Positions 57,965 to 64,000 of a stretch of DNA of 64,000 nucleotides are shown piece after piece (the first letter of the stretch is position 1; every line of letters begins with the position of its first letter). The notes below the pieces were generated by a model that did no database searches, was not told the origin of the DNA, and was given only the letters and a program-made list of their open reading frames with translations. The DNA lies in NCBI GenBank assembly GCA_019186985.1, contig JABARQ010000031.1, forward strand, positions 1-64,000. Direction: 5' to 3'. The position numbers and the translations under genes were made by a program. The DNA comes from Prosthecobacter sp. Its GTDB lineage: Bacteria > Verrucomicrobiota > Verrucomicrobiia > Verrucomicrobiales > Verrucomicrobiaceae.

Positions 57965-60900
57965 TTACTTGCTTGAAGTCCTGACCTCGACCTTGCGCAG
58001 GATGACCTCATGCCCCTCCTCCTTGGCATACACATAGCCTGTCCGGCAGGTTTCGACCACCCGCGGCTGCGCCTTGCCGGGAATGCTGTCCACCACCGCG
58101 ATGCGCCGGCGCAGGTTGGTGTCCACCTCGGTTCCCTCAGGAACATCAAACTCGCTCACACCATGCTGCAGAAGGATGTCCTCGAAGGACGCCCTGAGCG
58201 TCTGAAGCTGGGCGACAATGTCCGTGCTGCCCTGGGTGCCAAAGCGTGAGGTGAGCGCATCGATCAGGTCGATGCGCTTGATGATGTCGTTGGCGAACAT
58301 CACCACCGTTCCCTCGTCCACAGGGATGCCGCGGCGCATGATCTCGTGCTTCTCCTCAAGTTCAAGCAGCTGGCCGCGCAGCCTTGCCTCAATGTCCTGC
58401 CAGTGCTTGATCCGGGCCTCGGCCTGGGCGAATTCGGCGCGCCGGTCCTTCAGCCCGGACAGCTCCGCCTTGAGCCTCTCGCCCTGGGTCAGCTGGTCCT
58501 GGAGAAGACGGTCCATCTCGGTCAGACGCTTGCGCTGCTCCCCTTCGAGGGCCTGCAGGGAGGCCTTCTGCTTCATCGCCTGCTCCGTAAAGGCAGCCAG
58601 TTCGGCCTCGGCACGCGTCCTCTCCTTCCTGACCTCCTCGACACGCGCCCCCTCACGGTGACAGCTTTCCTGAAGCGCGTTGATCTTCACCTGCAGCGCC
58701 AGCTCACGTTCAGCGGCCTCGCGAAGCGCCTTTGTCGTTTCATCATGCCTTGCTCCGAGCGACGCCAGGGCGGCGCCCAGGGACAGCACCTGACCACCGA
58801 CATGAGTGTATTCGCCGAGGCGCTTCTCCTCCTGACGTATCCTGTCCTGGACTTCCGCCAGGCTGGCCTGCGCCGCGGCCAGGCTGCGCCGGTGCTCCTC
58901 AGCTTCCCCGCCCAGGCGCTTCTCCTCAAGCTTCAGGGCCTCGATGCGGTCCAGTCTCGACTTCATGTCCGCATCCAGCCCTGCCAGCTGTGAGCGTACG
59001 GCATCCGCCCTCGACCTCGACTCTTTCAGCTCGCGCTCAACATCCTTGAGGGCGGTCTCCGCCGCCGCCGTCCTCTCCTGCGCCGTCTTCAGCCTTCCAG
59101 CCTCCAAGTCCACCTCTGCCTGAGCCTTCATGACCCGCTCCTCACGCAAGCGCTGGGCCTCCTCAAGCTGCGAAATCTGCTGCTGCAGGGCCGCGACCTT
59201 CTTCTGGGATTCGTCGGTGGAGACGTTCAGTCGCGTCACATACAGCGACGCCTCGTCACGCTCCCTGCCCAGCCTGGCAAGAAGTGTCTGAAGTCCGGCC
59301 ACCTCGTTGTTCAACGAGGGCACGGCCTTGCGCAGGGCCTTCTCCTCATCACGAAGCCTGACGGCGGAAGCCTCCGCCTCCGCACGCCTGGCCTCCGCCG
59401 CCTGCAGGGCTGCGCTGACCTTTTCAAGCCTTGCCGTTGCATCCGCAGCCCTTGCCTCCTCGGCCTTGATCCTCTTCGTCAGATCGTTGACCTGCACCGT
59501 TCCGGCCTTGATCCCCTCCTCCAGGGTCTGCAGCTCCCTTCGCAGCTTCTCCTGCTGACGTGTCAGATCAGCCAGCTGCTTGTCCTCCGTCTGCCGACGC
59601 TTCTCCGATTCCTTCAGGCGCGCCTGGGACTCCGCAAGCTGCTTCTGCACATCCGCCAGCTCGGCGGCGCGTTTTTCAGCGGCGGCGACGCCGGCCGTCA
59701 GGTCCTTCAAGCGGGCTTCCGCCTGCGTGATCTCGGCAAGCCTGGCCTTGAGCTCGGCGTCCAGCCTGCCCCGCTGTTCCGTCTGCATCTTCTGCAGGCT
59801 GCCGATCTCCAGCCGAAGGGACTCGGCCTCCTCCGAGGCGGCCTTTCGGTCCGCCCGGGCTTTTTCCAAGTCAGCCGTGACTGACAGCCTGTCCTTGTCC
59901 AGCGTCTTCATCTCGCCCCTCAGCGCCTCCACTTCCGTGCGCAGCGGCGGCAGCAGCTTTTCGTTGTCCTCACGCTGGGACATCAGCGCCTTCACATGGC
60001 CAAGCAGGTCATCTCGGTCACAGGAAACCTTGGCCAGCTCGCGTTTCACACCCGCCAGGTGGGATTCAACATGCTTGAGTTCAACGGCCCGGGTCTCCAG
60101 TTCCCTGACCTGGGCGGCAAGCCGGGAGAGCCTGGACTCGGTTTCCGCCTCGTCCTTCTGCAACGCTGTCAGCGCCTCCTGCGCCAGCCCGGCTTCCGAC
60201 CTCAGGGACGGCAGGCGTTCCTCAAGCCCTGACAGCTCCTCTGCGGCTTCATTCTGCCGAACACGCGTCTTTTCCAGGTCCGTCGTGGCCGTCGCCAGGG
60301 CGGACCGCGCATCCGCCAGGCTTGCTTCAGCCTCCTTCAATTGCGCCAGACGTTCCTCAAGACCCGCCGTCTGCTGCTTCAGGTCGTCAAGCCGTGCACC
60401 CGTCTCGACGGCCTTCTGCTCATCTTCCGTCGTTGACGCCACCAGTGAAGCATGGCGCGCCTCCAGTTCCGCAACCTGCGCCTGACGCTCCGTCTGCGTT
60501 GCAAGAAGCGTGGCGAGCAGGGTCTCCAGACCGCCGGCTTTTTCCCGCAGACCGGCGGCGAGTGCATCCTGGCGCTGCCTTTCTTCCGCAGCCTCCCTGG
60601 CGGCCTTTACCGCCACCTCCCTGTCATCGCGGATGACGTTGAGCTCCGCCTGCTCCTTCACAAGCTGGTCGCGCAGCCGGGCCAGCTCCTGCTCGACCAA
60701 GGACTGCTGCCGCAGGGATTCTTCGGACTGATGGCGGAGCTGCTCCAGCCGTGCCTCGGCTTCACCCAGCTCCTTCCTGCGTTCCTCATGCGCAGATTCC
60801 GTCGCCCGCAGGGTTTCGCGCAGCCTGGCAAGCTCGGCGGCTGCCGCCGTGTGCTGCTCCTCGGCCGCACGCACCTCCGCTTCGGCGCCCTCACGCCGGA

Positions 60901-63292
60901 GTCCAAGCGTGCGGAGCAGGGTGTTCTGGGCGCGCCCCATCTCCGTGGCCGCCAGCAGGTCGCGCGTCATGGAGTCACGGTCGGAGGTCAGCTGCATGAT
61001 CGCAGTCAGCAGCTCCGCCTTGTGCTGCTCAACGGCCTTCAGCGCCGAGTTCGCATCCGCAAGCCGGGCGTCCGTCCCTGAAAGGTCATCCAGCTTGTTG
61101 GTTAGGTCGGCGGAGAGCGCCTCAAGCCGGGCGTTCTCCGTCCGAAGCCCTTCCTGGACCTCGCTCAGTTTTTCAACAGCGGCCTTCTTCTCGGACAACT
61201 GCCCGTCCAGCGCCGCAAGTTCCGCCTGCTTCGCAGCCCTTGCCTGCGCCTGCGATGCATCCAGTTCCTTCCGCTTCTTCTCCAGCCTCATGACCTCGCC
61301 TGAAATCTGAGCCTGCTCAGCCCGGAGCGCCTCCAGCGAACGGGCGGCTTCGGCCAGTTCATGACGTGTCTGCTCCAGGGAGCCGGACCTCCTGCCAAGT
61401 TCCGCCAGTTCATCCCTGGCGGCCGTCAGCCTGGCCTCCAGTCCAGCCAGTTCCGAAGTCTTCTCCCTGGCCTGGTCTTCAAGGCGGACAAGCTTCTCGC
61501 CTGCGGAGGCATGACGGCCCTCCAGCTCCGAGAGGGCCGCCTGCGTCTGGAGCCTCCTCGCCTCCGCCTGCTCCTGCTCTCGCCGGGCGGACTCGGCCGT
61601 TTCCGAAAGGCTTGCCGCCTCCGATTCGGCATTGTCCTTCTTCAGCACCAGGGCTGCCAGGATCGTGTCCAGCATGCCGCGCTGCTGCTGAAGGCCCTCA
61701 ACCGCCTGCCGCCCCTCCTCCGCCTGGATGCCCAGGTCTCTGATCTGCTGCTCCAGCCCCGCCTTCAGCTTCCCCATCTCCTTGAGCGCCGCCTCGGCCT
61801 GCTCATGACCGGCGCGGGCCGCCCTTTGCGCCGAATCCATGCCCGTCCCCAGCTTTTCCAGCTCCGCCCTGCGCTCCTGAACCTGGGCGGACAGAGCCTG
61901 GATTTCCGCCGAACATTGAAGCTTCTGCTCCGCCTCCGACTTCTCAAAACCGGCAGCCTTCCTCTCCAGCTCGGCCAGCCTGGACTGATGTTCATCCGCC
62001 GTCCTGGCAAGCTCCTTCGCCCGGGCCTCCTCCTGCTTCAGGTCCTGACGGGTTTTCTCCAGGGCCTTTTCTCCTTCAGCACGCTCCGCCTTCAGCCTTT
62101 CAGCCTCCTGGCGGACCTCCGCCAGCCCGGATTCAGCCGCCTGACGCTGCTGCTGCAGCTGAATCGTTTGTTCACGGATCGCCTGAAGCCGCGTCTCATG
62201 CTCGGAGGCCTCCTGACGCATGGACTCCAGCCTTGCCGCCTCCGCCTGAAGGTCCGCCGAATGTTTGTGCTTCAGCTCCGCCTCCGACTTCTCGAAGGCC
62301 GCAGCTGTCTTTCGCAGCTCGGCCGCCCTGGCTTCCTCACGGCCGAGTTCGGCTCGCAGCGCCTCCAGCCGCCTTGACAGTTCGGCACGCTCCAGGCGGG
62401 TTTTTTCCGCATCCTTGTGCAGGGATTGCAGGGACTGGTCAGCCGTCTCCATGTCCGACTGCACCTTGGCCAGCTGACTGCGTGTGGACTCCAGCTGGCT
62501 GTCGAGGTTGGAGACCTCACGGCGTTTTGCCGCGAGATTCTCCAAGTCTGACCGGGTGGCGGCCAGGGATTGCTTCGCTTCGGCCAGCAGGGCGTCCGCA
62601 GCCTGCACCTCCTTCTGCCTTTCATCGATGGACTTTTCGAGCTGCCGCAGCTCATCACGCCGACGGGACTCCTTCTCGTTCTCCTTGCGCAGCAGGTCAC
62701 GCTCCTGCCTGAGGCGTGACACCTCCTCCTTCAGTTCATCCGCCTGCTTCAGGAGGACCGGGTCGGGCATGGACGCCGGACGTGCTATCGGCATCGCCGA
62801 AGGCGCTGGCACGGCTCCGGGCATGGACGGCTCCCCCCGGGCAAGCGGAGCCCGTGTCGGCTCGATTGGACTGGTTTCGGGCTTCGCCTCATCCCGGGCG
62901 GGAATGGATTCCGTGTCGCCTCGCCTGCCGTCGGATGGCGCAGGCCTCGCCCTTCCCGGACCGGCGGGCCTTGAGCCCGATGCCGGAGCCGTGCCCTTGG
63001 GCGCCCTTTCGCGGAAACGTGCATCCAGCTGGCCGAAGCGGATCTTGTCCCCGCCCTTCACCATCGACCGCTCAACGCGCCTGCCGTTGACAAAGGTGCC
63101 GTTGGAAGACTTCAGGTCCACCAGCTCATACCCACCGTCGGCCTGCCGCACAAATTCGGCGTGGAACCCGGAGATGTAGGTGTTGTCGATGACGATGTCG
63201 TTCTTCGCATCCCTTCCGATGGACAGCCGCTCCTCGAGAATGTCGAAGACGAACTCATTACCATCATTGAGGTTGAAGGCCAGGTACGGCAT
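57965..63292 (-). CDS. Giant FHA / coiled-coil / GrpE-like protein
   Basis: The 1775-residue protein has three parts. Residues about 20-95 are an FHA domain (LSIGRDAKNDIVIDNTYISG then FHAEF, and SSNGTFVNGRRV), which binds phosphothreonine; the usual SxxH is present as SGFH. A Pro/Arg/Ala linker (96-175) leads to about 1450 residues of nearly continuous heptad-rich coiled coil, full of Glu, Arg, Ala, Leu and Gln, with a KEEVSRLRQERDLLRKE start. The last ~110 residues (FANDIIKRIDLIDALTSRFG, then LLQHGVSEFDVPEGTEVD, RRRIAVVDS, CRTGYVYAKEEGHEVILRKVEV) resemble the GrpE DnaK nucleotide-exchange domain. No signal or membrane helix is seen. It lies downstream of a response regulator transcribed in the same direction. 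Confidence 0.85.
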   Translation of the reverse strand: MPYLAFNLNDGNEFVFDILEERLSIGRDAKNDIVIDNTYISGFHAEFVRQADGGYELVDLKSSNGTFVNGRRVERSMVKGGDKIRFGQLDARFRERAPKGTAPASGSRPAGPGRARPAPSDGRRGDTESIPARDEAKPETSPIEPTRAPLARGEPSMPGAVPAPSAMPIARPASMPDPVLLKQADELKEEVSRLRQERDLLRKENEKESRRRDELRQLEKSIDERQKEVQAADALLAEAKQSLAATRSDLENLAAKRREVSNLDSQLESTRSQLAKVQSDMETADQSLQSLHKDAEKTRLERAELSRRLEALRAELGREEARAAELRKTAAAFEKSEAELKHKHSADLQAEAARLESMRQEASEHETRLQAIREQTIQLQQQRQAAESGLAEVRQEAERLKAERAEGEKALEKTRQDLKQEEARAKELARTADEHQSRLAELERKAAGFEKSEAEQKLQCSAEIQALSAQVQERRAELEKLGTGMDSAQRAARAGHEQAEAALKEMGKLKAGLEQQIRDLGIQAEEGRQAVEGLQQQRGMLDTILAALVLKKDNAESEAASLSETAESARREQEQAEARRLQTQAALSELEGRHASAGEKLVRLEDQAREKTSELAGLEARLTAARDELAELGRRSGSLEQTRHELAEAARSLEALRAEQAQISGEVMRLEKKRKELDASQAQARAAKQAELAALDGQLSEKKAAVEKLSEVQEGLRTENARLEALSADLTNKLDDLSGTDARLADANSALKAVEQHKAELLTAIMQLTSDRDSMTRDLLAATEMGRAQNTLLRTLGLRREGAEAEVRAAEEQHTAAAAELARLRETLRATESAHEERRKELGEAEARLEQLRHQSEESLRQQSLVEQELARLRDQLVKEQAELNVIRDDREVAVKAAREAAEERQRQDALAAGLREKAGGLETLLATLLATQTERQAQVAELEARHASLVASTTEDEQKAVETGARLDDLKQQTAGLEERLAQLKEAEASLADARSALATATTDLEKTRVRQNEAAEELSGLEERLPSLRSEAGLAQEALTALQKDEAETESRLSRLAAQVRELETRAVELKHVESHLAGVKRELAKVSCDRDDLLGHVKALMSQREDNEKLLPPLRTEVEALRGEMKTLDKDRLSVTADLEKARADRKAASEEAESLRLEIGSLQKMQTEQRGRLDAELKARLAEITQAEARLKDLTAGVAAAEKRAAELADVQKQLAESQARLKESEKRRQTEDKQLADLTRQQEKLRRELQTLEEGIKAGTVQVNDLTKRIKAEEARAADATARLEKVSAALQAAEARRAEAEASAVRLRDEEKALRKAVPSLNNEVAGLQTLLARLGRERDEASLYVTRLNVSTDESQKKVAALQQQISQLEEAQRLREERVMKAQAEVDLEAGRLKTAQERTAAAETALKDVERELKESRSRADAVRSQLAGLDADMKSRLDRIEALKLEEKRLGGEAEEHRRSLAAAQASLAEVQDRIRQEEKRLGEYTHVGGQVLSLGAALASLGARHDETTKALREAAERELALQVKINALQESCHREGARVEEVRKERTRAEAELAAFTEQAMKQKASLQALEGEQRKRLTEMDRLLQDQLTQGERLKAELSGLKDRRAEFAQAEARIKHWQDIEARLRGQLLELEEKHEIMRRGIPVDEGTVVMFANDIIKRIDLIDALTSRFGTQGSTDIVAQLQTLRASFEDILLQHGVSEFDVPEGTEVDTNLRRRIAVVDSIPGKAQPRVVETCRTGYVYAKEEGHEVILRKVEVRTSSK

Positions 63293-63500: not shown

Positions 63501-64000
63501 CTACAGCATTCCCCCGCGCTGCTCGACCCACTGCATGGCATGGCGGACCAGCGCCGCGCCGTCCGTGATTCCGAGCTTGTCCTTGATGTGCGCCCGGTGC
63601 GCCTCGACCGTCCGGGCGCTGATGTTGAGGCGTGTCGCGATGTTCTTGGTCGCCACTCCACGGCCGATCATCTCCAGCACCTCCAGCTCCCTGTCAGTCA
63701 GTGTGTCGATCCCGGCGCCCTGGCGCGGGCGCTGTCCGCTCACCTGCTCCAGCATGCGGCTGGCCATGGCGTCGCTGACATAAATGCCGCCGGCGAGCAC
63801 CTTGCGCACGGCGGTGACCAGGTTGTCCGCCGCCACCTCCTTCATGATGTAGCCCCTTGCCCCAGCCCGGAGGGCGCGCTCGCCATACATGTCCTCATCA
63901 TGCATCGACAGGACCAGGCAGAGGGTTCCGGGGTGCATGGCCTGGATGTCCTTGAGAAGCTCAAGGCCGTTCTTGTCCGGCAGGGTGAGGTCGATGACCA
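63501..64000 (-). CDS. NarL/FixJ-type response regulator (N-terminus outside the window)
   Basis: The visible 166 residues are the end of a receiver domain and a LuxR-type helix-turn-helix. VIDLTLPDKNGLELLKDIQ holds the phospho-acceptor Asp, and LVLSMHDEDMYGERALRAGARGYIMKE holds the conserved Ser/Thr-like and Lys positions of the receiver. After a linker, LTDRELEVLEMIGRGVATKNIATRLNISARTVEAHRAHIKDKLGI is the DNA-binding domain. The gene continues beyond 64000, so its start, sensor kinase and operon are not visible. Its stop lies 131 bases upstream of the FHA promoter region; the two genes are in the same direction. Confidence 0.93.
   Translation of the reverse strand, partial: VIDLTLPDKNGLELLKDIQAMHPGTLCLVLSMHDEDMYGERALRAGARGYIMKEVAADNLVTAVRKVLAGGIYVSDAMASRMLEQVSGQRPRQGAGIDTLTDRELEVLEMIGRGVATKNIATRLNISARTVEAHRAHIKDKLGITDGAALVRHAMQWVEQRGGML

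Follow-up and report, generated by a model that had tools for sequence, protein, structure and literature searches.

The window analysed here, a 64,000-nucleotide stretch of a Prosthecobacter sp. contig, encodes on its minus strand a protein that combines an FHA domain, a linker, a very long coiled-coil rod, and a GrpE domain in a single uninterrupted, ATG-started frame of 1775 codons (Table 1). This FHA-rod-GrpE architecture, first described from the sequence in a first-pass annotation, is real. Upstream of the rod gene and on the same strand lies a LuxR-type response regulator (63501-64000 and on; L038:7502-9684), before which we found a 511-aa frame with a C-terminus resembling a histidine-kinase ATPase. 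No regulator/kinase-like neighbourhood of this kind was seen at the rod loci of relatives.

Table 1. Position and basis of the features of the rod gene in the window.
Feature	Residues	Positions	Strand	Basis
Whole gene: FHA - linker - coiled-coil rod - GrpE domain	1775 aa	57965-63292	-	ORF and Pfam
FHA domain with R27, S41, H44, N64-G65	1-100	62993-63292	-	PF00498, 68.6 bits
Pro-rich linker, probably disordered	101-185	62738-62992	-	18 Pro within residues 101-200
Heptad coiled-coil rod	186 to about 1597	58502-62737	-	3.50-residue periodicity
Degenerate trace of a module of about 102 residues	256-460	61913-62527	-	Lag-102 identity and ortholog indels
GrpE domain: stalk helix, helical bundle, beta domain	1598-1775	57968-58501	-	PF01025, AF2, Foldseek, hhalign

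The FHA and GrpE ends

The N-terminal domain is an FHA domain, as had been claimed: its Pfam match covers residues 24-87 of the 1775-aa protein, and the signature residues listed in Table 1 are all present in the sequence and conserved across the genus. In known FHA domains, these are the residues that contact phosphothreonine-containing peptides. The window's genome contains 17 matches to Hanks-type kinases. The rod gene often has in its vicinity the gene of a second FHA protein of only about 215 aa (MASVVFYMEDGTTLVH...), e.g., at L039:10635-11453, L042:14060-14707, L047:3285-3935, and L048:3387-4034.

At the other end, PF01025 (gathering cut-off 25.8 bits) matched residues 1614-1757 of the whole protein with 29.1 bits, covering model positions 13-153 of 165, and scored 35.5 bits in the genome search. 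Homologous C-termini, 23 in all, could be aligned over their full length, and the profile built from them matched GrpE among PDB sequences (1DKG, E 3.6e-7; 4ANI, E 3.2e-4), while profile-profile comparison (hhalign) with the ordinary GrpEs of the order spanned the full domain (E 9.4e-8). An AlphaFold (AF2) model of the C-terminal domain as a single chain (pLDDT 88.9) has a stalk helix (2-56), two further helices (61-90 and 93-112), and then the beta domain, with the stalk helix running as a single continuous element into the GrpE domain. When this model was compared with the PDB using Foldseek, the best nine matches were all GrpE (E 1.6e-5 to 6.4e-4), followed by a tenth match at E 0.23. The full-length alignment of the 23 ends together with the PDB profile, profile-profile, and fold matches argues that the similarity to GrpE is not due to chance. 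By four tests (genome search, PDB profile, profile-profile comparison, and fold match), the C-terminus is thus assigned to GrpE from sequence and predicted structure, which bears out the GrpE-like pattern noted in the first-pass annotation and provides the significant structural match that had been asked for.

Only about 20 alignment columns are common to rod-type and ordinary GrpE. The beta domain, which in known GrpE opens the nucleotide cleft, is remodelled in the rod type and carries TEVDxxLRKRI in place of FDPNLHEAV; across families, it keeps its fold as well as the invariant positions LRK, SF, and G. A separate, ordinary grpE, for which a search had also been suggested, is present in the window's genome on contig C23, adjoining dnaJ.

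The rod and its variation among relatives

Over residues 186-1600, the hydrophobic repeat is exactly 3.50 residues, with a spectral power 47 times the mean, and the rod is nearly free of Pro and aromatic residues. Its heptad phase drifts only slowly, as expected of an extended heptad coiled coil with a stutter here and there, and the heptad pattern is consistent with a parallel homodimer. The predicted very long coiled coil therefore holds for about 1,400-1,430 residues which, at a rise of 0.1485 nm per residue, would extend for about 210 nm if straight and parallel, in agreement with the earlier estimate of more than 200 nm. Pfam found no ATPase domain in the 1775-aa protein. A kinship with SMC/Rad50 was considered and rejected as generic similarity, given that the match was confined to the coiled coil and reached 123 bits against a cut-off of 567 bits.

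We searched the genomes of the order for rod-type GrpE with the single domain as query and found it in 102 of 241, including every listed genus of the f1 family. The window's genome groups with Prosthecobacter and relatives in Verrucomicrobiaceae, and Brevifollis gellanilyticus and P. debontii MAGs are among its named matches. In a thin phylum-wide sample, it was present in 8 of 384 genomes, all of the host's own family. The orthologs differ greatly in length, with proteins of 294 aa (L089), 467-621 aa, 1,147-1,262 aa, and up to 2,086 aa, and the 294-aa protein is an FHA-GrpE with hardly any linker. It is therefore the fusion that is constant and the rod that is variable. Within the genus, conservation is highest at the two ends, FHA and GrpE, while length varies in residues 300-725 and 1026-1125. 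The GrpE domain is conserved rather than lacking in the orthologs, and the long rod elaborates an FHA-GrpE fusion in a way that is specific to lineages and variable in length. One genus (g3 of family f3; G127) has up to three or more paralogues of rod-type GrpE, among them an FHA-rod-GrpE with the Hsp70, a 544-aa FHA-GrpE, and a 196-aa protein whose N-terminal part includes a hydrophobic segment (L163:8319-8909 and L164:6431-8065).

Closer orthologues differ by 39 distinct indel sequences, of which 22 have a length of 102 residues and another 8 one of 204 or 306 residues. Several orthologue rods show a periodicity of 98, 102, or 107 residues, and in one of them the repetition of the module is visible as a 294-bp tandem repeat. 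The length variation of the rod comes partly from duplication of 98-107-residue modules. The window's own rod retains only a degenerate trace, with an identity of 0.29-0.37 at lag 102 for residues 256-357, and no DNA-level tandem array of the module was found within the window.

Genes beside the rod gene in relatives

In 29 of 30 same-genus genomes (Prosthecobacter and relatives) with both genes, the rod gene is followed by a gene for an Hsp70 of ca. 496 aa and then by one for a protein of ca. 110 aa, with a spacing between rod gene and Hsp70 of usually 27-80 bp on the same strand. Of the other genomes of the order, 39 have both genes, and in 33 of these the rod gene and the short Hsp70 are likewise adjacent on one strand; both are absent together from G014, G131, and G166 (88-96% complete) as well as from the less complete genomes G020 and G025. 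No Hsp70 adjoins the rod gene in the window's own genome, where the Hsp70 pair is found on contig C16 (short Hsp70 at C16:17786-19273). Furthermore, G007 and G039 keep an FHA-GrpE without the short Hsp70, and G040 encodes beside its Hsp70 a 1075-aa FHA-rod protein with 107-residue repeats and without a GrpE domain (L092:7647-10874). A separate small operon in G049 (L053:8335-11105) comprises a J-domain protein, a 231-aa GrpE relative, and a 581-aa Hsp70 that carries a C-terminal tail.

The conserved linkage to the Hsp70 and the third gene, together with their co-absence, speaks against the idea that the protein is a structural rod, either cytoskeletal or a spacer, in which the GrpE fold merely ends or registers the dimer without any chaperone role. 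The 294-aa version, which lacks a long rod, points the same way, and we consider this explanation improbable even though rod length, heptad regularity, and growth of the rod through module duplication are all in its favour.

Measured against Hsp70 reference features taken from PMC8215388, the short Hsp70 has an intact set of catalytic residues in its ATPase domain (D8, K70, E171, and T199) and no lid, with 18 residues past DnaK position 507 compared to 82-131 in the Hsp70s of E. coli. Its LLL linker is replaced by EVCN(x)xYG, the GrpE signature (residues 290-295), which is present in the genome's own DnaK, is deleted, and two residues of the cleft salt bridges, R56 and E264, are missing as well. 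In a tree from a small sample, the short Hsp70 belongs to a clade of its own that excludes E. coli DnaK, HscA, and HscC (support 100/99). The suggestion that the rod protein may engage DnaK/Hsp70 is supported by gene linkage as far as an Hsp70 is concerned, with the likely partner being this dedicated lidless Hsp70 and not ordinary DnaK.

The rod protein might instead act on ordinary DnaK, as a localised exchange factor additional to GrpE, a very improbable arrangement in our view since the genome already has an ordinary grpE and the rod gene is linked with the short Hsp70 gene rather than with dnaK. It would nevertheless accommodate both the GrpE signature kept by the genome's own DnaK and the persistence of rod-GrpE in G007 and G039, which have no short Hsp70.

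The C-terminal 60 residues of the third gene's product model as a helical hairpin for which the nine best PDB matches in Foldseek are all J-domains, albeit with weak E-values of 0.44-1.8. By itself, comparison with the J-domain by hhalign (P 0.002-0.004, probability 8-12%) is no more than suggestive, and the HPD motif is absent, with YNRxASS standing in its place. The profile of the third gene also picks up proteins of 326-438 aa from other orders of the phylum, matching their C-termini; these proteins carry an N-terminal hydrophobic stretch and, in three of four cases, TerB. Their genes come after a short Hsp70 gene that is preceded by a GrpE-like gene at three of the four loci; the GrpE-like genes of L156 and L159 were recognised by Pfam (0.01 and 5.5e-4), and the one of L157 was assigned by position and C-terminal motif only. 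These homologues in GrpE-like/Hsp70 loci support a J-like origin of the third gene without HPD and an older GrpE-like/Hsp70/J-like operon to which FHA and rod would have been added in Verrucomicrobiales. The operons at L157:6244-11111 and L159:2843-9176 comprise genes for a GrpE-like protein, short Hsp70(s), the TerB-J-like protein, and an M48 peptidase, and one of the two Hsp70 copies of L159 lacks D8 and K70.

Proposed mechanism and known systems

We favour, as the probable though by no means assured reading, a cofactor role for the protein: tethered by its rod and localised through a phospho-signal, it would serve the specialised lidless Hsp70 either as exchange factor or as dock. In GrpE dimers, the stalk is made of paired helices (PMC4753570, PMC12987570), and the rod would most simply be a huge extension of that stalk. 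Two copies would pair in parallel through the coiled coil that prolongs it, which would bring two FHA domains together at the distal tip, where they would bind a site that one of the cell's Hanks-type kinases has phosphorylated on threonine. The dimeric GrpE domain at the opposite end would bind the ATPase domain of the 496-aa Hsp70 and open its nucleotide cleft, or at least hold the chaperone, and the HPD-less J-like protein would complete the set of three. FHA docking on the kinase-made site would bring the dedicated Hsp70 there, and its work could be placed up to about 200 nm from the phosphorylated anchor.

This reading is based on the GrpE fold and profile matches, the same-strand adjacency and co-absence with the Hsp70, the GrpE-like/short Hsp70/J-like order in other lineages of the phylum, the continuous stalk helix of the AF2 model, the conserved FHA and GrpE ends, the 17 kinase matches, and the intact catalytic residues of the Hsp70. 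Against it stand the lack of R56/E264, LLL linker, and lid in the short Hsp70, the small number of columns shared with ordinary GrpE, the FHA-GrpE proteins without short Hsp70 (G007, G039), the GrpE-less FHA-rod (G040, L092), and the unlinked genes in the window's own genome. The missing GrpE signature counts more specifically against classical exchange and, together with the missing salt-bridge residues, argues for an altered interface or pure docking.

Such pure docking would make the GrpE domain a clamp or dimer cap that fixes the lidless Hsp70 to the end of the rod, with exchange being intrinsic to that Hsp70. The retained beta-domain fold with its invariant LRK, SF, and G positions weighs against this alternative, as this domain is the cleft-opening part of known GrpE. 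In its favour are the replacement of FDPNLHEAV by TEVDxxLRKRI and the absence, as in HscA (PMC8215388), of GrpE signature and salt-bridge residues from the short Hsp70. We regard it as unlikely. HscA is a fast-exchanging, GrpE-independent Hsp70, and absence of the GrpE signature is described as a mark of Hsp70s that do not use GrpE (PMC8215388).

The change of lid, linker, HPD, and GrpE signature in one system suggests a re-engineered Hsp70 cycle rather than ordinary refolding. It is conceivable, and we propose this tentatively, that lid, linker, J-motif, and GrpE signature changed together in an undescribed Hsp70 machine that is operated remotely through a phospho-anchored rod of adjustable length and acts as a signal-gated, spatially positioned chaperone or switch. 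Bacterial GrpE has been described as free and evenly distributed, which was used to argue against localised exchange in bacteria (PMC8215388); if our reading is true, a GrpE fixed via a long rod to a phospho-reader would contradict that argument directly. In addition, the operon reveals an Hsp70 clade of its own that has neither lid nor classic linker.

No FHA-GrpE fusion was found in the open-access papers searched. Specialised Hsp70 triads are of a known kind, and the FHA-rod-GrpE architecture appears to be unreported. With GrpE itself (PF01025; 1DKG, 4ANI, 3A6M, and GrpEL1 9BLS), the rod protein shares the order of stalk helix, bundle, and beta domain, as seen in profile and fold matches, and in relatives also the linkage to an Hsp70 gene. 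It differs in its FHA domain and rod, its remodelled beta domain, about ten times the ordinary length, and a partner Hsp70 without the GrpE signature. HscA-HscB and HscC-DjlB/DjlC likewise pair a dedicated non-DnaK Hsp70 that lacks a DnaK-type GrpE signature with its own J-type partner, whereas the system described here includes a GrpE-type gene and an Hsp70 of a separate clade without lid and LLL linker. The domain of the third gene stands behind TerB elsewhere in the phylum, as in DjlA-type TerB-J membrane cochaperones, but it has no HPD motif and, in Verrucomicrobiales, no TerB. Genes of the Hsp70, GrpE, and DnaJ types also lie side by side in GAP1-N2 conflict systems, the closest gene neighbourhoods found in the literature, which, according to the parts of that description consulted, are GTPase-centred, occur mainly in actinobacteria and firmicutes, and are not reported there with an FHA-rod-GrpE (PMC7159879). 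Finally, the BAG-family exchange factors of eukaryotes similarly fuse an exchange factor to targeting domains (PMC4753570), in a functional analogy only, with a fold unrelated to GrpE.
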